Shown: piece by piece, positions 2,638 to 14,868 of the stretch
Layout: every line of letters starts with the position of its first letter
Numbering within the stretch: position 1 is the first letter of the stretch
Origin: an uncultured Spirochaetales bacterium
GTDB taxonomy: Bacteria > Spirochaetota > Spirochaetia > Sphaerochaetales > Sphaerochaetaceae
Length of the DNA: 15,390 bases
NCBI GenBank assembly: GCA_934276695.1
Contig: CAKQTF010000009.1
Location: 1-15,390, forward strand
Direction: 5' to 3'
Program-made: the position numbers and the translations under genes
Notes under the pieces: model-generated
Database searches by the model: none
What the model was told of the DNA's origin: nothing
Seen by the model: only the letters and a program-made list of their open reading frames with translations

Positions 2638-3183
2638 TCAACAGGATTCACAATGATGCAGATATATGCAGGCCCTGCTGAGAAAGCTTATGGGAAGATG
2701 CCATGGCCTTGTCAGATAGCTGTTGTTTCCCATGCAGTGCAAGAACTCTTCTCCTGCATAGCCATTCTCTCCAAGCCATACCTGGTAATCATCAACATTG
2801 CCGAACTCATAGCGGCCTTCTTCCATCAGCACAACATCATCAAATCCGATCCGATCCCTCTGAGGATAGACATGAAGCTTCCCGACTGCATAGGCCTGGT
2901 ATCCTTCACTTCGGAAAGCCTGTGCCAGAGTCGTTACATCAGGCATTTCCATCCGGTCAGAATAAACACGGTCACCATGAGTTGCAGGAAAAGTGCCAGT
3001 CATCAGGCTGCGCCTGGCAGGGATACAGACAGGACAGGTACTGTACATATCAGTGAACAGGATTCCCTGCCTTGCCATCTGGTCCAGAGTCGGTGTCATT
3101 ATATTCTTATGCCCAGCGCATCCCATCAGATAACGCGGCCATTGATCTGTATTGATCAGGAGCACATTCTTCCTCTTTTCCAT
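2638..3183 (-). pseudogene. Sulfatase, truncated to its N-terminal third
   Basis: About 160 residues match the start of a type I sulfatase (alkaline-phosphatase superfamily). Visible are the first metal-binding segment VLLINTDQWP, the C-x-P-x-R formylglycine motif in CPVCIPARRSLMTG, TLAQAFRSEGYQAYAVGKLHV with the conserved Lys and His, and GMGNNSY-like NNSYLTRPWHLP. After WHLP the similarity stops and a short unrelated tail (ISFLSRACIYLHHCESC) runs to a stop. Intact members are usually about 450-500 residues, so roughly 300 codons carrying the remaining metal ligands and the C-terminal domain are gone. The ATG at 3181-3183 (MEKRKN) is preferred over the upstream one because AGGA lies at proper spacing. 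The product is not expected to be active. The deletion end lies against the ABC operon. Confidence 0.8.
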
Positions 3184-3440
3184 AATCAGCATCCTGCAAT
3201 CATAGACATCACAAGAACTTTATGTGATATGCTATCGTCTACCTATATCTTTATTTTATCTGTTATTGAATTTCCAGTATATGCCAATGATTAAAGAAAA
3301 CTGAAACAATAATAGGCATCAGCCAATGGCCAGGAAATGTTTCTGAAATCCTGATATAATGAAATATCGCCTGAACCATAGAGAACAGAACGCTTATAGT
3401 TTCTCAATTGCATTAAACCAGAAGCTACCCAAAATCTTAT

Positions 3441-3543: not shown

Positions 3544-4776
3544 ATGTCTAAACTTATTAATCGCCCTCAATATCTGAACCAGCTTATCAAGAATAAAGAC
3601 ATAGACCTAGCAAAAATCGTCACTGGAATCCGTCGTTGCGGGAAATCATCACTTCTTGATCTTTTCCATGAATACCTATTAGAGATTGGAGTTCTTCCAT
3701 CAAATATAATACACATGAACATGGAATCACTGCGATACAGAAACATTACAGACTATCTCCTGCTTTATGATTATGTCAGCAAAATGATTCCAGAAACAGG
3801 TAAATCTTATCTTATCTTTGATGAGATTCAAACTGTTGAACACTGGGAAAAGGCCATTGAATCTTTCCGCATAGATTTTGATGTGGATGTATATATTACC
3901 GGATCCAATGCTTATCTCTTATCAACAGAATTATCAACATTACTTTCAGGGAGATATATTGAAATAAAAATGCTTCCATTGTCATTCAGGGAATTCCTGG
4001 ACTTCTATGATTTCCCTATGAGTACTACCCTCGATGAAAAATTTCAGAAATACCTTAAAATCGGAGGAATGCCAGTTCTCAATGAATATCAATTAGATGA
4101 ATCAGGATGCAACCAAGCCTTAGAAGGAATTTATTCAACAGTAGTATTACGTGATATTCTGCAACACAATGAAAGATCAGACCAAGCAACATTGCAAAAG
4201 ATAATATTGTTTTTATGTTCTAATATCGGAAGTATTACATCGCCTAATAATATTGGAAATATACTCTCAAATGAAGGCTCTGTCATGAATACAAAAAAAC
4301 GCAATATTGCCGGCAAAACTGTCGAAAAATACATTAGCATGCTGCACAATGCTTTCGTATTCCTCCCAGTAAGCAGATACGATATAAAAGGGAAGCAGCT
4401 ACTGAAAACACTGGAGAAGAACTATATTATCGACATGGGTTTCCGTAATATGCTTCTTGGCTATCGTGATGCAGATAGAGGACATATTCTAGAAAACATA
4501 GTCTTTCTTGAACTTCTTAGAAGAGGCTACAGAATCTATATTGGGAAAGCCGGTGATACCGAAGTTGATTTCATTGCAGAAAAGACTGAAGAAAAACTAT
4601 ATATACAAGTCACTGAAAGCATGCTGACTCAGGAGACGAGAGAACGGGAGCTCCGACCTCTTCGTTCTATTCGTGATAATTATGAGAAAATCATACTATC
4701 AATGGATCGCAGCTTTATAAATTCATATGATGGGATAAAATCTCTCAACCTGGTTGACTGGCTTCTAAATACATAA
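3544..4776 (+). CDS. AAA_14/DUF4143 ATPase (COG1373 family)
   Basis: A 410-residue predicted ATPase. The N-terminal AAA_14 domain has Walker A GIRRCGKSS (about residues 28-36), Walker B YLIFDEIQ (about 92-99), a sensor-like VYITGSNA and the LSGRYIEIKMLPLSFREFLDFY segment typical of COG1373. The C-terminal DUF4143 part has ENIVFLELLRRGYRIYIGK followed by DTEVDFIAE and LYIQVTESM, a PD-(D/E)xK-like arrangement (D-x-V-D-F then I-Q-V). The start is supported by AAAGGA 7 nt upstream. Length and motifs look intact, unlike the two decayed relatives at 13085 and 14290. Function of the family is not established. These genes are common and often multicopy in gut bacteria and spirochaetes. Confidence 0.9.
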   Translation: MSKLINRPQYLNQLIKNKDIDLAKIVTGIRRCGKSSLLDLFHEYLLEIGVLPSNIIHMNMESLRYRNITDYLLLYDYVSKMIPETGKSYLIFDEIQTVEHWEKAIESFRIDFDVDVYITGSNAYLLSTELSTLLSGRYIEIKMLPLSFREFLDFYDFPMSTTLDEKFQKYLKIGGMPVLNEYQLDESGCNQALEGIYSTVVLRDILQHNERSDQATLQKIILFLCSNIGSITSPNNIGNILSNEGSVMNTKKRNIAGKTVEKYISMLHNAFVFLPVSRYDIKGKQLLKTLEKNYIIDMGFRNMLLGYRDADRGHILENIVFLELLRRGYRIYIGKAGDTEVDFIAEKTEEKLYIQVTESMLTQETRERELRPLRSIRDNYEKIILSMDRSFINSYDGIKSLNLVDWLLNT

Positions 4777-5037: not shown

Positions 5038-7934
5038 TTAAGGCAATTCCCCCCAAAACTCTATTTCCAGATAGTTTTCTAATCTATCTTCTTCTATGAG
5101 CCTTAATGCATCGGCCTGCCGCAGATTGTGTTCTGCAATCTTAATGCTGTCAGAAAAGCCCAATATATAGTTCTTAGCAATATTATAGATTATTTCAGTT
5201 GGAGCTAATCCGAATACCTGTTTTGCAAATATATGCTGTAATCTCATTTCCTTATCTGGATAGAGTTCTTTCATTTTCTCGCTTCTGAATAACCTCTTTA
5301 CAATCTCTGCGATATAAAGGCCTGATTTCATATACATATCTATAAAGGTCTTATTCTGGTCATCAAAGCATCCTGGATTCTCTTTCCCTAATAAATCAAC
5401 CATCTCCTTTACTATCTTCTTCGGAGTAAAAATCTGATTTGTTTTCTGAGGCGGAATGTAATCAAAGATATCCATACTGCTACTTTCATCAAAATAATCT
5501 GCTAGCTCTTTTTTAAGTCGCAGAAACTCCTTCACAGAATCATCAAATGTCACAGGATTGAAGAGATTACCTATAAACTCTCTATCTTCTCCGGTTTTCT
5601 CATCTTTGTATTTTCCACCATCACGCAAGAACCTGAACTCATCAAGCGTAATGCCCGTTACTTCCTTGAATACCTTATCGGACACTATAGTATCAAAGTT
5701 ATTAAGAGTTGTATTACCATCACCATATGCCATGAGGAAAGATGGTATAGTCCTGGAAAAACCTCTCAGCCTATCCTTAATACTCGTCTCTGCTTCAGTC
5801 TTTTCATTTTCCCTTTTCTGAGTTTCGAGGCTTCTAACGATTTCTTTTTTTGCATTATGAGAAAACTCATTTTTAAGATCTTTAAAGTTTTCCTTTAAAT
5901 CTTGCCTAGCATCTTCCAGTTTTATCTTAAGAGCCTCTATTGCCGCATATTCCTGAGCCTGAGTTTCTGCATTACCACGCAGTTCCTGATACTCAGCTTC
6001 TGCCTCATTGATTCTGATGTTATATTCACCTATAACCTTATTTATAAGGCTATCACCATGAGCCTGAAGCTTCTTTATAAGCCTCTTCTTGTTTGCAGGC
6101 TTAAGTACATCATTATAATTATTGCTTGCAGTATTGACCAAAGGATCAATAACATCGGTATGAAATCTATCCTTTATTTCTTTAAAAGGATCCTCCTGAT
6201 CTGTTTTATCCTTGATGATATCATCTACTGCATCACAAAGCTCATCTTCTAGCCCATCCGCATCGCTATATATTGCATCTCCGAAGAGATTATCAGCCTG
6301 AGACTCAATAAAGCTATCTGGAAGATTAACATCTCCATTTCCATTGATATACAGTTTCTTTGCAGTATTCTCATCAACATCCAATTCTTTATTAGGTTCT
6401 TTAACTGCTTCAAGCTTACCAATTATATCCAGCACAGCTTTTGGGGCATGGAATACATTGCTTATATTCTGAAATAGAAAATCTGACATAAAGCCCCGTC
6501 TAACAACTTCCTGAGAATGGATCTTTCTAGGAATAGATAAGACTTTTTCTGCATCAAGGAGAACCATTTCACCATCTTCATCTTCTCCTATTACAGGGAA
6601 AAAATTCAGAAGTTCCCTGACATTCTCCTTTCTTGTAGCCATATCTCCCTTTCCATCAGTTGTTTCCGAAGAGAGATCATTTGCAAATTCTTCAAAGATA
6701 GTAAGTGTCCTTGCGGGGTCAAAATCAAAGAGATATGCATTTTCCTTTCTATAGTATTTACCAGCTTTACTATACTTCCAAGGATTCTGAGCCCTGAAAG
6801 CAGCCTGCATATAAAGAGCGGGACTCTTCATATTTGAAAGCATTAGAACAGCAGACCACTCAGGTATTGTCACACCTGTTGTCAGCTGACCAACAGATAA
6901 CGTGATTGTCTTATCATGTTCCGCAATTGCCTTCCTAACCTTATCTATGGACTCCATGTTTTCGGTTTCTTCTGTATCATCTAGTTTTCCATCACCAGCA
7001 GCCAGTACAATTTCATAGTTCTCGAATACAGGGTGCTCTTTAAGCCGCTTTGCCAGAGCCTTTGCTGAATCAACACGATTCAGAATCCAGAAAGTATGCT
7101 TAAGCTCATTTCTGAGTTCTGGAGTTGAGAATGGATATTTCTCGTTCTTTGTTAATGAATCAAGAAAAGCATCAACGGCATCTGAATGCCAGAATCTTCC
7201 ATTTCTATCTGTTTCAAAGAAAAGATTCAGGTCAAAAGCATATTCCTCTGTCTCTCCATTAATCTCAATACCTTCTCCTATCTGCTCTTTAATGATCTCA
7301 GACATCTGATAGGTATACATATTAAGCTGAGGCAGCGATTCATATGGATTGTTTTCATCACCCTTCCAATTTCTCTTCTTTCTCTGCTCATCTGCATATG
7401 TCCAGTTGTATATGCATTCTTCTCGGAACTTATCATTGGCAAGAGCCTTAAAAGGAGTACCAGAAAGATGCAGCGTGAATCTTCTATCAATATGATCAAA
7501 AGCTATATCTGTCTTAAAAGTATCGACACCTTCATGAGCTTCATCAATTACAAGAATATCCCACTTTATATCCTTAATCTCAGCAAGTTTATTATACTTA
7601 CCACCAAAGTGAAGAGATCCTTTCAGATCCTGAAGGCTGAGAAAATAAATAAGCTTTGCATTAACGTTATGAAGCTTATCCTGCATAAATGTCTTATAGT
7701 CTCTAACCAGTCTTTTATCTTTAACAGAATCAGTAGTACTGACAAAATAATATCCACTTACTGTGCCAACAAACTTATCGTAGTCATCATACCAGCTGTT
7801 TGCGATTGCAGGACGATTTGTAACAATCAGAACATTCTTAGCATCAACTTCCTTAATAAAATCATATGTTGAAAGAGTCTTTCCAAAACGAGGCTTGCAG
7901 TTCCATAATACCTCAGCATTATAATGGCTCTTAT
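5038..7934 (-). CDS. SF2 helicase plus methylase-like protein, cut off from its GIY-YIG N-terminus by DNA inversion
   Basis: This is the C-terminal 965 codons of a restriction-type protein. The only ATG in frame is at 7684-7686, inside the helicase domain, but coding similarity continues upstream to the 13-bp repeat at 7922-7934. Upstream codons give motif I (CKPRFGKT, with LSTYDF following). Counting from 7686: DEAH at residues 48-51, SGTPF 75-79, motif V LSVGQLTTGVTIPEW 263-277, motif VI YMQAAFRAQNP 292-302, a charged coiled-coil region about 545-640, and a C-terminal methylase-like part (NQIFTPKKIV from 750, FIDMYMKSGLYI in place of motif I) with no NPPY. The start is missing on this strand: the frame meets TGA at 7972-7974. 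Inverting 7922-10176 joins it in frame to the GIY-YIG ORF at 9734-10177, giving 1,108 residues. As shown it has no start signal and is probably silent. Confidence 0.9.
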
Positions 7935-9734
7935 GGTTACCAACCTGATTCAGAAATCCAGATTGATCAGCTCACTGGTAATATGATTGAGCCACGTGTC
8001 CAGAAGGCCATAGAGACGCGAAGCGATAGAACAAAGGCATTTGCCGAAGTATTCACTCCATCATGGATATGCAACCAGATGAATAACTATGCTGATGAAA
8101 GCTGGTTTGGAAGAAAAAGCGTCTTCAATGAAGAAAAAGAACAGGCTTGGGTACCATCAGAATCCAGGATTACATTTTCAGAAGATAAACCATGGACTGA
8201 ATATGTGTATTCAAGATATCTGGAGATTACATGCGGAGAAGCACCATTTATCGTATCAAGGTACGATGCTGCAACAGGGGATATAATTCCTCTGAAAAAC
8301 AGGATAGGCATCCTTGACCGTAAACTTAGGGTTATCAATGAAAATACTGATAATGAAGATGATTGGCTTTTATGGACAACCCGAGCTTTTCAGTCTGTCT
8401 ATGGATATGAGTTTCAAGGAGATAATCTCTTAATTGCTCGTATTAACCTTCTGATAACATTTATTGAATATCTACAGAATAGATGGAATAGAGCACCATC
8501 AGAAACAGAATTAAAAACAATTGCAAACATAATCGTATGGAATATCTGGCAGATGGATGGCTTTACTAACACTATACCTTTCAGCCAAGCAACAGATGAG
8601 CAGCTTGATCTGTTTTGCTTTACTGAACAGGAAGACAATGATTGCCTGGTATTTGATTGGAGAGGATCAAAACGCTCCGTAAAATATAGATTCATAGGGG
8701 GAGAAATAAAAATGAAATTTGATTTTGCAATAGGAAATCCGCCATACCAGGGAGAGACTACAGGAAGCCAAAAAAACAGGATGCCTCCTATATATAACGA
8801 ATTTATGGAAGGTGCTTATAAGATAGCAAATGCTGTTGAACTGATTACACCTGCGAGATTTCTATTCAATGCAGGTGATACGCCAAAAGACTGGAATGAA
8901 AAGATGCTCAATGATCCTCATCTTAAGGTTCTTTACTATGAAATAAATGCCAGTAAGATTTTTCCTGGTACTGATATCAAAGGGGGCATTGCTGTAACAT
9001 ATCGTAATTATTCTCAAATTTTTGGTGCTATAGAAACTTTTACATCAACTCCTGAACTTGATTCTATTTTGCAGAAGATAAAACTTAAAAAACAAGCATC
9101 TCTTTCTTGTTTAATATTTAATAGGGGGTTATACAGATTTTCTCAAAAAGTATATCAAAAATATCCTCAAGTTAATGAGTTATTAAGTGATTCTCGCATT
9201 TTTTCAGGTGCTTTTTCGCGTCTTGGTTTTTTATTCTTAGATAAGAAACCTCAAGATGGTAAAGATTACATTGGTATTTTGGGATTGGATGGCAGAGAAC
9301 GTGCTATTAAATTCATTCCAAGAGAATATGTTGATGAAGTAAATTCCCTTGAAAAGTATAAGGTATTTGTCCCAAAATCAAATGGCTCCGGTGCTATAGG
9401 TGAAGTATTATCGACACCCATAATCGGGGAACCCCTAATCGGGCATACTGAGACATTTTTAACTATTGGCTGTTTTGAGACTAAACTAGAGGCTCTGAAT
9501 TGTCTGAATTATATAAAAACCAAGTTTGCACGAACAGCTCTAGGTATTTTGAAAGTAACCCAAGATAATCCTCCTGAAAAATGGAAATATGTACCTCTTC
9601 AGGACTTTACTTCAAATTCAGATATTAACTGGAATGTATCGATTAAGGAAATAGATAAACAACTCTACAAAAAGTATGGTTTAAGTCCTGAAGAGGTAGA
9701 ATTTATTGAGAAAAATGTCAAGGAGATGAACTAA
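7866..9734 (+). CDS. Eco57I-type N6-adenine DNA methylase, start removed by DNA inversion
   Basis: This 622-codon frame carries nearly all of a restriction-system methylase. Motif X-like AEVFTPSWICNQ is at residues 60-71, the SAM-binding motif I region YLEITCGEAPFIVSRYD around 118-134, and catalytic motif IV NPPY at 291-294. A target-recognition-like C-terminal half follows. The ATG at 7866 is not the natural start: codons up to the repeat (7922) are antisense to the helicase gene, and no ribosome binding site is present. The true first 35 codons lie on the minus strand at 10164-10268. After inversion of 7922-10176 the gene reads through in frame to 634 residues, with NPPY at 303-306. Its stop overlaps the GIY-YIG start (TAATG). 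The 3' half is visibly more AT-rich than the first half. As shown it probably yields no active enzyme. Confidence 0.9.
   Translation: MLKESFQNEACSSIIPQHYNGSYGYQPDSEIQIDQLTGNMIEPRVQKAIETRSDRTKAFAEVFTPSWICNQMNNYADESWFGRKSVFNEEKEQAWVPSESRITFSEDKPWTEYVYSRYLEITCGEAPFIVSRYDAATGDIIPLKNRIGILDRKLRVINENTDNEDDWLLWTTRAFQSVYGYEFQGDNLLIARINLLITFIEYLQNRWNRAPSETELKTIANIIVWNIWQMDGFTNTIPFSQATDEQLDLFCFTEQEDNDCLVFDWRGSKRSVKYRFIGGEIKMKFDFAIGNPPYQGETTGSQKNRMPPIYNEFMEGAYKIANAVELITPARFLFNAGDTPKDWNEKMLNDPHLKVLYYEINASKIFPGTDIKGGIAVTYRNYSQIFGAIETFTSTPELDSILQKIKLKKQASLSCLIFNRGLYRFSQKVYQKYPQVNELLSDSRIFSGAFSRLGFLFLDKKPQDGKDYIGILGLDGRERAIKFIPREYVDEVNSLEKYKVFVPKSNGSGAIGEVLSTPIIGEPLIGHTETFLTIGCFETKLEALNCLNYIKTKFARTALGILKVTQDNPPEKWKYVPLQDFTSNSDINWNVSIKEIDKQLYKKYGLSPEEVEFIEKNVKEMN
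7922..7934 (+). repeat. Left inverted repeat of the invertible block
   Basis: TAATGGCTCTTAT matches the reverse complement of 10164-10176 perfectly. Extending inward to 16 bp gives 15 of 16 matches (TAATGGCTCTTATGGT against TAATGGCTCTTATAGT). Bases outside the repeat do not match. Confidence 0.9.
9720..9725 (+). promoter_or_regulatory. Ribosome binding site of the GIY-YIG-helicase gene
   Basis: AAGGAG lies 8 nt before the ATG at 9734 and inside the end of the methylase frame. It supports the start and, with the TAATG overlap, translational coupling of the two genes. Confidence 0.75.
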
Positions 9735-10177
9735 TGAGAACTCCTGCCTTAAATACAAGCAAAACTATCATTCCGATGTGCTATGCATATACTACTCCTG
9801 GTGTTTCTTCAAATAATGGTTGGATTAAAATTGGATATACAGAAGCACAGACTGTAGAGGATAGAATTAAACAGCAGACTCATACTGCAAGGATTGAAGC
9901 TCATGAAGAATGGCGTGGCTCTGCAATATATGATGATGGCTCTGGCGAATCATTCACAGATCATGATTTCCATGCATATCTGGCCAAAAATGAGATTGAG
10001 CGATCTCCGAGCACTGAATGGTTTAAGACAACTGCTTCATATTCACAGGCTCTGTTTTACAAGTTCAAAAGTAAGCGTTTCAGTGGAATCAGATCGACAT
10101 CAATAAACACTTACACACTAAGGGAGGAACAGGCTGAAGCTGTTAGTATGGCAGTAGGATACTATAAGAGCCATTAG
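9734..10177 (+). CDS. GIY-YIG (T5orf172-type) nuclease domain, N-terminal piece of the helicase protein
   Basis: A 147-residue frame with a T5orf172/GIY-YIG core: IPMCYAYTTPG then WIKIGYTEA (about 31-39), VEDRIKQQTHTA with the conserved Arg, and EEWRGSAIYDDGSG. The family cleaves DNA phosphodiester bonds. The ORF ends abruptly with YTLREEQAEAVSMAVGYYKSH and a TAG at 10175-10177. LREEQ looks like the Q-motif that normally precedes helicase motif I, so the end is unnatural. The stop is created by the inversion junction at 10164-10176. With the block inverted, YYKSH continues directly into YNAEVLWNCKPRFGKT of the minus-strand helicase. As shown, a stand-alone nuclease domain could be made only if something transcribes this strand. 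Confidence 0.88.
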   Translation: MRTPALNTSKTIIPMCYAYTTPGVSSNNGWIKIGYTEAQTVEDRIKQQTHTARIEAHEEWRGSAIYDDGSGESFTDHDFHAYLAKNEIERSPSTEWFKTTASYSQALFYKFKSKRFSGIRSTSINTYTLREEQAEAVSMAVGYYKSH

Positions 10178-10268
10178 TCCAAAGGATATTCTTCTTTGAA
10201 GTCTTATCCTTCAATAACAAATGCAGTACTCGTCGTATATTAAAATCCTCTAAATCTATTAAATCCAT
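10143..10268 (-). CDS. Methylase N-terminal fragment left outside the inverted block
   Basis: A minus-strand frame starts at the ATG in 10266-10268, only 5 nt after the stop of the GmrSD-like gene, and reads MDLIDLEDFNIRRVLHLL, then KDKTSKKNILWTNGSY. In the shown orientation it then runs into SILLPY and a TAA at 10143-10145 (41 residues). In the inverted orientation GSY is followed by GYQPDSEIQIDQLTGN, i.e. the start of the methylase now at 7935-9734. Residues up to Tyr35 (through the repeat) are natural; the last six are junction-derived. The position right behind the GmrSD-like gene shows that the operon runs on the minus strand in the ON state. Confidence 0.82.
   Translation of the reverse strand: MDLIDLEDFNIRRVLHLLLKDKTSKKNILWTNGSYSILLPY
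10164..10176 (-). repeat. Right inverted repeat of the invertible block
   Basis: ATAAGAGCCATTA on the plus strand, the exact complement of the left repeat. It encodes the terminal YKSH codons of the GIY-YIG ORF on one strand and NGSY of the methylase fragment on the other, so it is coding in both genes. Confidence 0.9.
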
Positions 10269-10273
10269 TAGCT

Positions 10274-12277
10274 CTACTTCTCTATATCTGTCAATCTAAT
10301 GCCATTATAAGTCCAATACAAAGCACCTTGATATGCACCAGATGCAGTTACAGTGCCTTTCCTAGTATAGATTTCTCGTGTTAATGGCGATAATTTCCAT
10401 TGTTTTCCTTCATAACAAACTTCCCTATCACTGACTACTGTGGCTGTTATACTGCTATCATCAGCAAAATGGATTTCTTCTCCTATAAGACCAATTCTCT
10501 CGAAAGAAAACATTTTGTTTTCTTTAATTGAAAAATTATTTGTCCGCCTCATCAAATCTGGAATAGGGAGGACATCTTCTAATAGTGTTTTTATAAGCCA
10601 ATCTCTGCGAGCTATAATGGACTGCTCATCCCATTGAGAACAGTTTGTAATGCCAGTATTTGCAATCTGAAGACCTGCTTTTTCATGATAAATCGCCTTC
10701 TTCTCTACAAACTTTTTCTGTCCTAACTCCTGATTATGACGGATAAGCGTAAGATTTCCCAGATTATTCACATACTCTGTGTGTATCTCTTCTGCATTAT
10801 CTCCTAGTTCTTTTACCCAATCATTATTCAACACCTGGGGCATTATATGTTCAATCTGCAAAGCTTTTTCTGTTAGATTTGGTCTGCTTTTTGTAATACT
10901 TTCTTCAATTAAAGCTAGATACAATTTACAATAATTGAAATTATAGAAATTGAAGAATTCAAGTTTCTTTCTTATATCTATATCATTTGGCAAACGTGAA
11001 TTACTTTCCTGATTAGCCAATATCTTAAACATCTCGCTTTTCTTATCGGATGCAAACTCTAGAGATGTTATTTTCCCTGTTAATGCAGGAAAATTCTTAT
11101 TCTCTGCAGAAGTTATGCCAAGCAATCTGCGCCTTAAGCAATAAATTCTCAGAGCTTCAAGAATATCTACAATTTCAGCACTGCTGAACACACCCTGCTT
11201 CCATTTGCTTAAAAGCACTAATATCAATGAATAAGCAGTTGAAACCTTAATAAGCCTAAAATCTTTAAGAATCATATCAACCTTATCATTACCAGTGGTC
11301 GAATCTGAAATTATAGAAGAGTACAGTAAAGCTTTAGAACATAAATCCTTCAATAGTTCTTCAACATCAATTTTGTTACCATCGACAGTATTACCGAAAA
11401 GCATTTTGAATTCATAGTAAAGCTTCTTATAATTTGCTTCAGTAGCCTTCATGTATGACTTCATACCATAGCCCTGCATGTAGTCTCTAATATAATCTGA
11501 AATTTCGCCAGATAGTGTTCTCTCTATCTCAAGCCAGTACTTTTTATATAACTCATCCTGCTTTCTGTGAGTAAGTCCTAACATCATATAATTCCTTACA
11601 AGATCAGCAAGAGATAATGGCTTACCTAGAGAATTCATTGATTCAAATATCTCCTGAGGATTTTCCCAAGTTTTCTCTCTAGGTTCTAATTGCAGAGTAA
11701 CAATACTAAACAAACCAAGTCCAGAATCAATAAGCTTACAAATATCAATACCATCATTTTTCAAATTCACAAGTTTGTTATAGAAATATTTGTAGTTCTT
11801 ATAGATTGTTGATTTCTTCTCTGATTCACTAAGTTCAAGATTATATATAAGCTTCTTATAAGATTCCCAATCAACTTCAACTTGCTTCAGCTTTATCTTG
11901 TATTCACTATCTCCTATTGCTTCCTCGTTGCAAAGATACTTTCTATTTATATGTTTCTTGATTCCATCATTATCGATAATATCTCTGACAGCCAACATAA
12001 ATAACATCGTAGTAGTAATTCTTTGCTGTCCATCAATTAGTATAAATTGCCGAGGAAGACCTAACGCCTGCTCTCTTTCTGCAAAAAAAGTAATAGTACC
12101 AATAAAATGCTCGATATGTTTTCCATGAAGATTTGCCTCATAGGTTTTCTTAATATCCTTCAAAAATACATCACATTGCTCTTCTGTCCATTCATAATTT
12201 CTCTGATATGGCGGAATAAAAAAAGTCAAATCGTTATTCGATAAAAGGAATAACAGTTTCGTTTCAGTAGCAATCAT
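10274..12277 (-). CDS. GmrSD-like nuclease: DUF262 - DUF1524 - RAMA-like C-terminus
   Basis: A 667-residue protein. The DUF262 (GmrS/ParB-like) N-terminus has IPPYQRNYEW (21-30) and the nucleotide-binding DGQQR (82-86). The DUF1524 (GmrD, HNH-type) region has EHIMPQ from residue 476 and YVNNLGNLTLI about 502-512. The last 60-70 residues (YEGKQWKLSPLTREIY then SGAYQGALYW) resemble RAMA-type modules often attached to modification-linked proteins. GmrSD and its relatives (SspE, BrxU) are NTP-dependent nucleases that act on or are controlled by modified DNA; that role is inferred. The start ATG at 12275-12277 has no strong Shine-Dalgarno sequence. The stop lies 5 nt before the true methylase start at 10268, so it heads the restriction operon on this strand. 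It lies outside the inverted block and stays intact in either orientation. Confidence 0.88.
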   Translation of the reverse strand: MIATETKLLFLLSNNDLTFFIPPYQRNYEWTEEQCDVFLKDIKKTYEANLHGKHIEHFIGTITFFAEREQALGLPRQFILIDGQQRITTTMLFMLAVRDIIDNDGIKKHINRKYLCNEEAIGDSEYKIKLKQVEVDWESYKKLIYNLELSESEKKSTIYKNYKYFYNKLVNLKNDGIDICKLIDSGLGLFSIVTLQLEPREKTWENPQEIFESMNSLGKPLSLADLVRNYMMLGLTHRKQDELYKKYWLEIERTLSGEISDYIRDYMQGYGMKSYMKATEANYKKLYYEFKMLFGNTVDGNKIDVEELLKDLCSKALLYSSIISDSTTGNDKVDMILKDFRLIKVSTAYSLILVLLSKWKQGVFSSAEIVDILEALRIYCLRRRLLGITSAENKNFPALTGKITSLEFASDKKSEMFKILANQESNSRLPNDIDIRKKLEFFNFYNFNYCKLYLALIEESITKSRPNLTEKALQIEHIMPQVLNNDWVKELGDNAEEIHTEYVNNLGNLTLIRHNQELGQKKFVEKKAIYHEKAGLQIANTGITNCSQWDEQSIIARRDWLIKTLLEDVLPIPDLMRRTNNFSIKENKMFSFERIGLIGEEIHFADDSSITATVVSDREVCYEGKQWKLSPLTREIYTRKGTVTASGAYQGALYWTYNGIRLTDIEK

Positions 12278-12359: not shown

Positions 12360-12839
12360 TCACTTATCAATGCTCAGACAATAATGCCCATATTCACCGG
12401 TGTCTGCTTCCTTTATGAGCCCAAGTTCCTTCATCTTCTTAACAAGTGCACTTGCTGGTGACTTTGATATCCCGCATGTTTCAGCAATATCAGATCTGGT
12501 GAAAGGTTCAGAAAGCCCGAATCGCATATATAGCGCCATTATATTATCTCTTGTAGGAGTACTCAGATTGAAAGACTCCAAGCGAGTCTTAAAGTCCTGT
12601 TTTTCTGCTAGAAGTCCTGTTTTTTCTTCATTAAAGTCCTGTTTTTCTGCTAGTAGTCCTGTTTTTCCTTCATAATTCAAGTTCGGTAATGTCACTATGA
12701 AATCAGATGAAGATGATATAAATACAGGCTTTTTCTCATCTGTATAGTTAGAACATGACCGATACCATTCAATAATCTTTTCTAATCCACTCCCCTGCCT
12801 CTCCATATAGCCCAGGCGGGAAAAACCATCAGCTACCAC
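12360..12839 (-). CDS. C-terminal piece of an AlbA_2/ATP-binding-type transcriptional regulator with winged helix
   Basis: A frame of 159 codons whose only early start is a GTG with no ribosome binding site. It begins inside a conserved block (DGFSRLGYMERQGSGLEKI), the end of the divergent ATP-binding domain of COG2865-type regulators. A linker with a duplicated 14-residue unit (KTGLLAEKQDF twice) follows, then a winged-helix domain near the C-terminus (FTRSDIAETCGISKSPASAL). Coding similarity extends upstream to about 12966 in two frames, so the shown start is artificial and the gene is broken. Its stop is 82 bp before the GmrSD-like gene. A short DNA-binding fragment might still be made, but a functional regulator is unlikely. 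Confidence 0.6.
   Translation of the reverse strand: MVADGFSRLGYMERQGSGLEKIIEWYRSCSNYTDEKKPVFISSSSDFIVTLPNLNYEGKTGLLAEKQDFNEEKTGLLAEKQDFKTRLESFNLSTPTRDNIMALYMRFGLSEPFTRSDIAETCGISKSPASALVKKMKELGLIKEADTGEYGHYCLSIDK
12591..12674 (-). repeat. Two tandem copies of a 42-bp unit inside the regulator gene
   Basis: Units 12591-12632 and 12633-12674 differ at only a few bases. Each itself contains two AGTCCTGTTTTT half-units on the plus strand. The period of 42 keeps the frame and encodes a 14-residue duplicated linker around KTGLLAEKQDF. Confidence 0.75.
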
Positions 12840-13084: not shown

Positions 13085-14259
13085 ATGATTAAGAGAGAAA
13101 TACCTAGCTGAAATCAGAGGATTCTATGACAGTGATCTAATCAAAGTAATCACTGGAGTAAGGCGATGTGGCAAAAGCATTCTGCTTGAGCAGATTCAGA
13201 ATGAGATCAGAAAGAAAAGCAACAATATCATCAGAATCGATTTTGAAGATAGAGCAAGCACAAATACAATAAATACCTGGAATGACATTACTGATCTTAT
13301 TTAATCACAAAGAAAAGATGGGCTCTGCTATGTATTCCTTGATGAAGTTCAGGAAATCCATGAGTGGGCAATTGCTGTCAGAACCCTCAGAAAAAGAAAT
13401 TGCTCAGTATTCATAACCGGATCTAATTCAAAACTGCTATCAAGCGAATTCACAAAGGAATTATCAGGGAGATATGTAGCTTTCAGAATCCGCCCGTTCG
13501 TATACAAGGAAATGGCTGCATATGCAGAAGAGCTCGGGAAAAAATGACAATTTCTGATTATCTTATCTGGGGAGGATTCCCCAAAAGGCTTGAACTATCA
13601 GAAATGACCAGCGAAGATATCTAAATGATCTTGATGAGACAATAGTAATGAACGACATAATATGCCGTTACAATATCAGAAAAGCACGGGACTTCAGAAA
13701 AGTAGCAAATTTTATTCTTCTGTCAAATCCAAGGATCTATTCATCAAGATCAATTGCTTCTCATATGAAGAACAATGGAATTGAAATCACGGCAAATACT
13801 ATACAGAAATGGATCTCATATCTAAAAGAAGCATATGTGATTGACCAGATTCCAAGATATTCACGCAAAGCAAAGAAAGAGCTGAAAGAAAGCAGAAAAC
13901 TCTATAATTGCGATGTTGCTCTCAATTCAATCAGGGTATCAGATGGAAGATTCGACATAACACACAATATGGAGAATATCGTATACAACGAACTCATATT
14001 CAGAGGATACTCTCTAAGCGTTTATGATAACAATGGAAAGGAAATAGATTTTCTGGCAGAAAAAGATTCAAAACGATACTTTATACAGGTAGCATATTCT
14101 GTTGTAGATGAGAAAGCATATAAAAGGGAATTCAGAGCTTTCGGAAACCTGCCTCAGATTGACAGGAAGGTAATCATCACAAATGATGACATTGACTATT
14201 CAACAAGCAATGTCCAGCATATTAGGCTCTCTGATTTTCTTACTGGAACGGAATTATAA
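13085..14259 (+). pseudogene. AAA_14/DUF4143 ATPase, decayed by frameshifts and a stop
   Basis: The whole length of a COG1373 ATPase is recognisable across frames. It starts MIKRE, then YLAEIRGFYDSDLIKVITGV, Walker A GVRRCGKS, Walker B-like YVFLDEVQE, VFITGSNSKLLSSEF, LSGRYVAFRIRPFVYKEM and MTISDYLIWGGFPKRLEL. An intact last part of 203 codons (13648-14259) contains NIVYNELIFRGYSLSVYDN, KEIDFLAE and YFIQVAYS. Visible lesions are a frameshift near 13102, an in-frame TAA after DITDLI (about 13301), a frameshift in the A6 run near 13540, and another near 13620. Similar in layout to the intact gene at 3544 but clearly diverged in sequence, so not a recent copy. The remaining C-terminal ORF lacks the ATPase core. 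Confidence 0.85.
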
Positions 14260-14289: not shown

Positions 14290-14868
14290 TTCAGCAGCTT
14301 CAGAGAATACAGGACTGATGAATTCCTCAAATGTATCAGGGGATATCGGAATGCATCAGATACCATCAAAGGATGGCGCCAGTTCCTGTTGATTCATTTC
14401 CTGCATATTACCTCAGACCATACAGGAAATGCTCAAAGAGAATACCTGGAAATATGGCAAAGTTCTATTTCTTTGATGGCGGTGCTGCAAGGGCAGCCGT
14501 AGGAATACCTGTTCCATCTGATACAAAGACTGAGTATGGCAAGATGCTTGAGAACTGCATCTTCATGTAGATGAAGGCATATATCGACTGCAATATGACA
14601 GATGATGAGCTCTGCTTCTGGAGAACACGTGGAGGATATGAAGCAGACTTCATCATCGAGCATAAAGCCGCAATCGGGATAAAGACATCAAAGAACATAA
14701 CAAGTAAGAAACTGCGAGAACTAAGAGCTTCCAGAAAAGAGAATGCTGTGAATGATTACATCATCGTATGCCAGGAGCTTTTTTGAGCGTACCACTGAAG
14801 ATGGGATCAGGATAATTCCATGAAAGCAGTTTATGGATAAGCTGTGGAATTGGGAGATAATCCTCTGA
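14290..14868 (+). pseudogene. Second decayed DUF4143 ATPase, C-terminal half only
   Basis: Pieces in three frames line up with a DUF4143 protein. First come FREYRTDEFLKCIRGYRNAS and DTIKGWRQFL, then after a frameshift near 14400 YLRPYRKCSKRIPGNMAKFY and FFDGGAARAAVGIPVPSDT. KMLENCIFM ends at a TAG (14568-14570). MKAYIDCNMTDDELCFWRTR, YEADFIIEHKAAIGIKTSKN and NDYIIVCQELF follow, then a shift at the T6 run near 14780 into ERTTEDGIRIIP, a TGA where Trp is likely, and KQFMDKLWNW to a final TGA. The ATPase domain is absent. Sequence between 14260 and 14290 shows nothing else. Confidence 0.78.

Follow-up and report, generated by a model that had tools for sequence, protein, structure and literature searches.

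A likely inversion switch with crossover points inside both the methylase and the nuclease–helicase genes of a restriction–modification system

Introduction

Restriction–modification (R-M) systems switched by DNA inversion are already known, with the switching effected via their specificity genes. In the pneumococcal cod locus, the tyrosine recombinase PsrA inverts hsdS (PMC4948785, PMC7096588) and needs just a 15-bp repeat together with its upstream sequence (PMC7096588). Likewise, HvsR is described as inverting hsd in Mycoplasma pulmonis, with some of the rearrangements abolishing R-M activity altogether (PMC4948785), and restriction subunit S genes are reported to overlap invertons (PMC11892184).

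The locus analysed here resembles the cod locus in being an R-M locus changed by inversion at short repeats in coding sequence, with the 15-bp IR1 of the pneumococcal system having a length similar to that of the repeats described below. It differs from it in that homologous hsdS genes swap parts in the pneumococcus, with a change of specificity, whereas here a non-homologous methylase and a nuclease–helicase are cut together. In M. pulmonis too, the crossovers lie in hsdS genes, unlike those in our locus. Further, psrA lies within the cod locus itself, whereas no recombinase was seen among the frames of our 15-kb contig. Relative to the switching of specificity genes, the locus would be a variant in which the crossover pair lies inside the methylase and nuclease–helicase genes.

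A phase-variable restriction system must not make the nuclease without the methylase, and paired crossovers would couple the two in one DNA event. Gene-altering programmed inversions with their ends inside genes were reportedly catalogued in Milman 2023, as were, it is said, intragenic inversions with ends inside genes in Chanin 2024; a two-gene on/off case may or may not be in these surveys. Among the literature titles and abstracts listed, we found none that describes a single inversion disrupting both a methylase gene and a nuclease gene.

Here we describe such an arrangement in the window, by which we mean the whole stretch of DNA that was analysed (15,390 bases, G+C 38%). We use M for the Eco57I-type methylase and H for the GIY-YIG/helicase protein; ON denotes the predicted orientation with both genes joined and OFF the shown orientation. 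A block lies inverted between repeats inside the methylase and GIY-YIG/helicase genes, and we consider it likely that it acts as a reversible on/off switch.

Results and Discussion

Two genes in four pieces

The block is bounded by a perfect 13-bp inverted repeat, of which the window holds a single copy in each orientation (Table 1); the positions and the exact complementarity of the two arms agree with the original prediction. Upon inverting the block by script, two frames emerge on the minus strand, namely M (634 aa) from the ATG at 10268 and H (1,108 aa) ending at 5038, each with 0 stops, thereby reproducing the in-frame and stop-free junctions that had been claimed. The resulting gene order, all on the minus strand, is the GmrSD-type gene, M and H, with 5 bases between the GmrSD stop and the M ATG.

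Table 1. Features of the candidate invertible block and the gene pieces in the shown orientation
Feature	Position	Strand	Remarks	Basis
Left 13-bp repeat, TAATGGCTCTTAT	7922..7934	+	Inside H gene, codons 144-148 (minus strand) in joined form	Sequence
Right 13-bp repeat	10164..10176	-	Exact complement of left; inside M gene, codons 31-35 in joined form	Sequence
Inverted block	7922..10176		2,255 bp	Script inversion
Eco57I-type methylase frame as shown	7866..9734	+	622 aa, without family N-terminus	Profile and relatives
GIY-YIG piece	9734..10177	+	147 aa, N-terminus of H; ends at repeat	MUG113/T5orf172
Stranded M start	10177..10268	-	ATG and first 30 codons	Sequence comparison
Stranded H residues 149-226	7687..7920	-	With Walker A PRFGKT (7876-7893)	Sequence
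Rest of H	5038..7686	-	882 aa from first ATG	Frame and Pfam
GmrSD-type gene	10274..12277	-	Outside block, directly ahead of M start	GmrSD_N and GmrSD_C

As shown, the minus strand yields only 41 readable aa from the start at 10268, and although no stop interrupts the helicase frame upstream until the TGA at 7974, its first ATG/GTG/TTG comes only at 7686, past the Walker A motif. The ResIII domain is covered in the window's helicase piece at profile positions 98-163 only, under the Pfam cut-off, as against positions 3-163 in P0121, a relative 77% identical to H. The helicase had been described as lacking its GIY-YIG N-terminus, and that frame does lie apart on the plus strand. The parallel description of the methylase as lacking a start holds for the family N-terminus, which is missing, but the 622-aa frame has an ATG of its own at 7866, followed by 19 unrelated N-terminal residues. 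Judged from the sequence, neither complete enzyme is encoded in the shown orientation, and we take the shown state to be OFF for M and H alike.

The repeats and the open frames are by themselves modest evidence for an inversion. The window has 67 maximal inverted pairs of at least 11 bp whose arms begin 300 bp or more from each other, and 12 overlapping 13-mer inverted pairs, where 20 mononucleotide shuffles gave 2.3 on average; repeats this long are not unusual in it. Moreover, both long frames likewise stay open for 569 of the 3,721 pairs of inversion ends that lie no more than 30 nt from the actual ones, so being in frame is alone about a 15% coincidence, and random inversions lengthened open frames by some amount in 177 of 1,500 draws (those ending beyond 12,200 being skipped and scored as no gain). 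Among the 67 repeat pairs, the 7922/10164 pair ranks first in frame lengthening.

The comparison with relatives carries the argument further. The joined H is 57-77% identical to its listed relatives over 98-100% of the length in 119 of 120 (86% in the remaining one), and the joined M is 50-58% identical to 119 listed relatives over 97-100% of its length. Across the junctions, H residues 128-164 align without a gap to all 120 listed relatives, and M residues 20-35 do so in 108 of 119; extending the latter stretch to residue 36 leaves only 31 of 119 ungapped because many relatives have an insertion after residue 35. The joined forms rather than the pieces are therefore the conserved genes, the opposite of short forms being conserved stand-alone genes, and hence an inversion happened here. 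The four pieces are thus two family genes that a single inversion has cut, as originally proposed. The predicted fused proteins are in this sense represented in public data by conserved joined forms, but these reach at best 77% identity for H and 58% for M, with none of those listed coming from the window's own lineage.

Affinities of the system

Several features mark this as a predicted R-M system with an Eco57I-type methylase: the Eco57I profile matches M at E 8.4e-19, H bears a GIY-YIG domain, and ResIII is detected in P0121. The adjacency of M and H in relatives further supports a probable operon combining a methylase with a nuclease/helicase. The two cut genes come from different families (an Eco57I methylase, and a GIY-YIG domain joined to a ResIII helicase), which sets the locus apart from an hsdS-type specificity shufflon. 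The best solved-fold match of P0121 is the type ISP enzyme LlaBIII (PDB 4xqk; E 5.6e-13 over 1,096 columns), with TM-scores of only 0.24/0.18, and a sequence search of solved structures returned no match for P0121 or P0002. Type ISP enzymes are single chains comprising an Mrr nuclease, a helicase, a methylase and a specificity domain. Since H has an N-terminal GIY-YIG domain and the genes are separate, the system is not a member of type ISP, and the likeness of H to LlaBIII is at most one of fold.

Arrangement in relatives

From the 478 relatives of H found in a species-genome collection we retained the 80 best, a selection that favours intact copies. In all of these best 80 of 478, and likewise in three additional plasmid loci, H has its two halves side by side on a single strand. 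M is present on the same strand, upstream of H, in 78 of these 83 loci; the exceptions to its usual placement are L082, where the C-terminal part of M lies behind H, and L012, which has an extra inverted copy. No contig with its two H halves on opposite strands was recovered from sets of 139, 397 and 291 genomes, in which 12, 19 and 29 genomes, respectively, had any H match, many of them to a remote part only. The 139-genome set is the order with the best relatives (up to 53%) of the window's ABC permease, reached from the Spirochaetaceae genome of L063; that permease has a match at E 0.001 or better in 133 of the 139 genomes, many of these being weak. On this one gene, the window likely stems from a relative of the spirochaetes. 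DNA matches were found in 56 plasmid and 4 phage records, 60-80% identical with none covering 80% of the query; seven of these regions were inspected, and H was uncut in all three that were checked by script. An outcome named beforehand as counting against the inversion is thus partly realised, in that no alternative orientation from the window's own lineage was found, although the intact relatives are all joined.

The GmrSD-type gene is a recurring neighbour of this GIY-YIG/helicase restriction family. In 8 of 114 loci (L034, L047, L067, L106, L107, L108, L110 and L114) a gene of this type, 28-30% identical to that of the window, starts shortly after the helicase gene; five of the eight are similar viral contigs, and partial GmrSD matches occur in four more loci.

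Many relatives have a bipartite M, divided near residue 287, in some cases with other genes lying between the parts. In L003, L007, L044, L051 and L062 the genes for the N- and C-terminal parts of the methylase are separated by nucleotidyltransferase-like/HEPN-like pairs and small helix-turn-helix genes, as named from their sequences. Near-palindromic TGACATTCACTAAATGTC motifs stand ahead of both methylase genes in L062 (4086-4103 and 5880-5897) and in L044 (4077-4088 and 5904-5915); lying near the small helix-turn-helix gene, they may be part of an operator-like control of the methylase. An 18-bp inverted repeat near the methylase N-terminal gene of L062 was considered as a second inverton and rejected as a repeated operator-like motif beside the helix-turn-helix gene. 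The second copy of the methylase C-terminal part in L012 (1946-2947), which is inverted and upstream of the intact one, has an early stop; it was likewise set aside as support for inversion, the shared 13 bp being a conserved gene start, and is possibly a decayed specificity shufflon.

Does the segment still flip?

Some pieces cannot be translated in the shown orientation. Among them, residues 151-226 of H share 81.4% identity with the ten nearest relatives, as against 80.9% for these relatives compared with one another; likewise, the stranded residues 1-30 of M show 50.1% identity to relatives versus 47.9% among the relatives. The untranslatable stranded pieces have thus not eroded. Yet genes do decay in this neighbourhood, for the AAA/DUF4143 ATPase gene at 13092-14250 has accumulated internal stops and a frame change. 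This gene matches the intact gene at 3544-4776 in two frames at about 30%, and frames at 14331-14786, with no Pfam match, look like a further fragment.

A second line of evidence comes from P0242, which is 86% identical to the GIY-YIG piece over the same 147 residues, likewise ends in YKSH, and comes from a different contig (1,037 bp). It would be either in OFF itself or on a contig ending at the last base shared by ON and OFF, and either option places the boundary at the same point. An OFF state that came to both lineages by descent would be old, and decay of the stranded pieces would then be expected; otherwise, OFF arose twice.

The residues coded by the repeat depart from their families at both places. 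For residues 144-150 of H the identity is 27.1% versus 72.4%, and for residues 31-35 of M it is 26.0% versus 80.0%. Y148 of H occurs in none of 120 relatives and N32 of M in none of 119. As K145 (31 of 120), S146 (23 of 120) and H147 (81 of 120) are common in the wider family, H departs mainly at Y148 and from its nearest relatives. The longest inverted repeat between the two places, sought within 45 nt on either side in the 72 loci having both, of 114 compared and with some near-duplicates among them, is 9 bp in 3, 8 in 7, 7 in 17 and shorter than 7 in 45, as against 13 in the window. The departure of the repeat-coded residues would be explained by a demand on the DNA itself at both places, and would not be expected had the repeat arisen by chance within family-like sequence; the repeat has the look of a DNA-level site superimposed on two unrelated coding frames. 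The same departure might have its price: methylase position 31 is A in 116 of 119 relatives and T in 2, and position 32 is T/S in 117 of 119, whereas the ON form of M would carry T31 and N32, and such changes at near-invariant positions may cost it activity.

The 13-mer is not enriched in the 139 genomes of the likely order (16 matches in 14 genomes versus 13 for the reversed control), and none of the 10 such loci inspected matches M or H. A 17-mer containing the right repeat recurs in 14 stretches of viral contigs, none matching M or H, and was taken as chance. Among about 5.8 billion proteins no ON form of the window's own lineage turned up: the best listed match of H is 77% identical, and the sole identical match listed for M is the short form of 622 aa, seen in 3 contigs; this search is incomplete for the window's own contig because its 882-aa helicase piece is also unlisted. 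On the four indirect lines given by the stranded pieces, P0242, the repeat-coded residues and the shorter repeats of related loci, we consider it likely that the segment still flips.

The above has to be weighed against other readings of the same locus. We judge it unlikely that a single inversion at a short repeat disabled the system for good in this lineage and that it is now starting to decay. Such an event would fit with the missing ON form of the window's lineage, the lack of a recombinase among the window's frames, the altered near-invariant residues of the methylase at the repeat, the decaying neighbouring genes and the commonness of similar-length inverted repeats in the window; but the untranslatable pieces are just as conserved as in intact relatives, the dead inversion would have to be old if inherited, given that a lineage 86% identical stops at the same residue, and a chance repeat should be family-like, the reverse of what is observed.

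An alternative toggle, between full R-M and modification alone, would have the shown orientation lose only the nuclease, with the 622-aa methylase still made from the plus strand. The chromosome would then stay protected through both flips, and the frame does have an ATG and retains all that follows residue 32, including the Eco57I domain; however, sequence inspection revealed no Shine-Dalgarno-like sequence at 7866 (one, AAGGAGATGAACTAATG, is present at the H start), promoter-like matches in the region are at the level of shuffles (27 versus 29.3), and the conserved N-terminus of the methylase is lost, leaving this toggle a quite improbable option. Still less probable is an assembly chimera, with the inverted junctions being absent from cells. 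Although the window looks like one metagenome contig, proteins bearing the junctions of the shown orientation (P0001, P0241) are found in three contigs, which may share reads; further, the same end residue recurs in a distinct lineage, and both ends fall exactly on the inverted repeat. We accordingly retain a reversible switch as the preferred reading.

Proposed switch

It is reasonably probable, in our view, that one pair of recombinase sites is embedded in two adjacent but unrelated genes, such that one flip assembles or dismantles the whole R-M system and no orientation has a complete nuclease minus the methylase. Briefly, the mechanism would be as follows. A predicted recombinase would flip the block, rebuilding or breaking both genes in one event. 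In OFF, the minus strand carries the GmrSD-type gene, a methylase stub of 41 aa, a stretch in antisense and a helicase frame without an ATG/GTG/TTG before the Walker A motif, so that the body of M is cut off from its start and the motor of H from its nuclease domain. In ON, a single strand would carry the GmrSD-type gene, the 634-aa methylase and the 1,108-aa H, with the methylase preceding the nuclease; the GmrSD-type gene would stay outside the segment in both states. Because one crossover pair serves both genes, a complete nuclease would never be encoded without a complete methylase, and the coupled flip would avoid restriction without protection. In the structure model of P0121 (mean pLDDT 77, pTM 0.55) the crossover of H falls in a loop (147-149) leading from a helix to the strand before Walker A.

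If this is correct, a whole phage-defence system would likely be under a single on/off switch, and recombination sites could sit within conserved, non-homologous coding sequences. Such a design would escape surveys confined to promoters, to single genes or to duplicated specificity genes.

Other features of the window

The sulfatase gene at 2638-3192 on the minus strand is shortened, matching profile positions 1-144 of 301 only. Finally, a fragment of a winged-helix regulator contains, at 12589-12672, two tandem 42-nt copies that are 95% alike and in frame.
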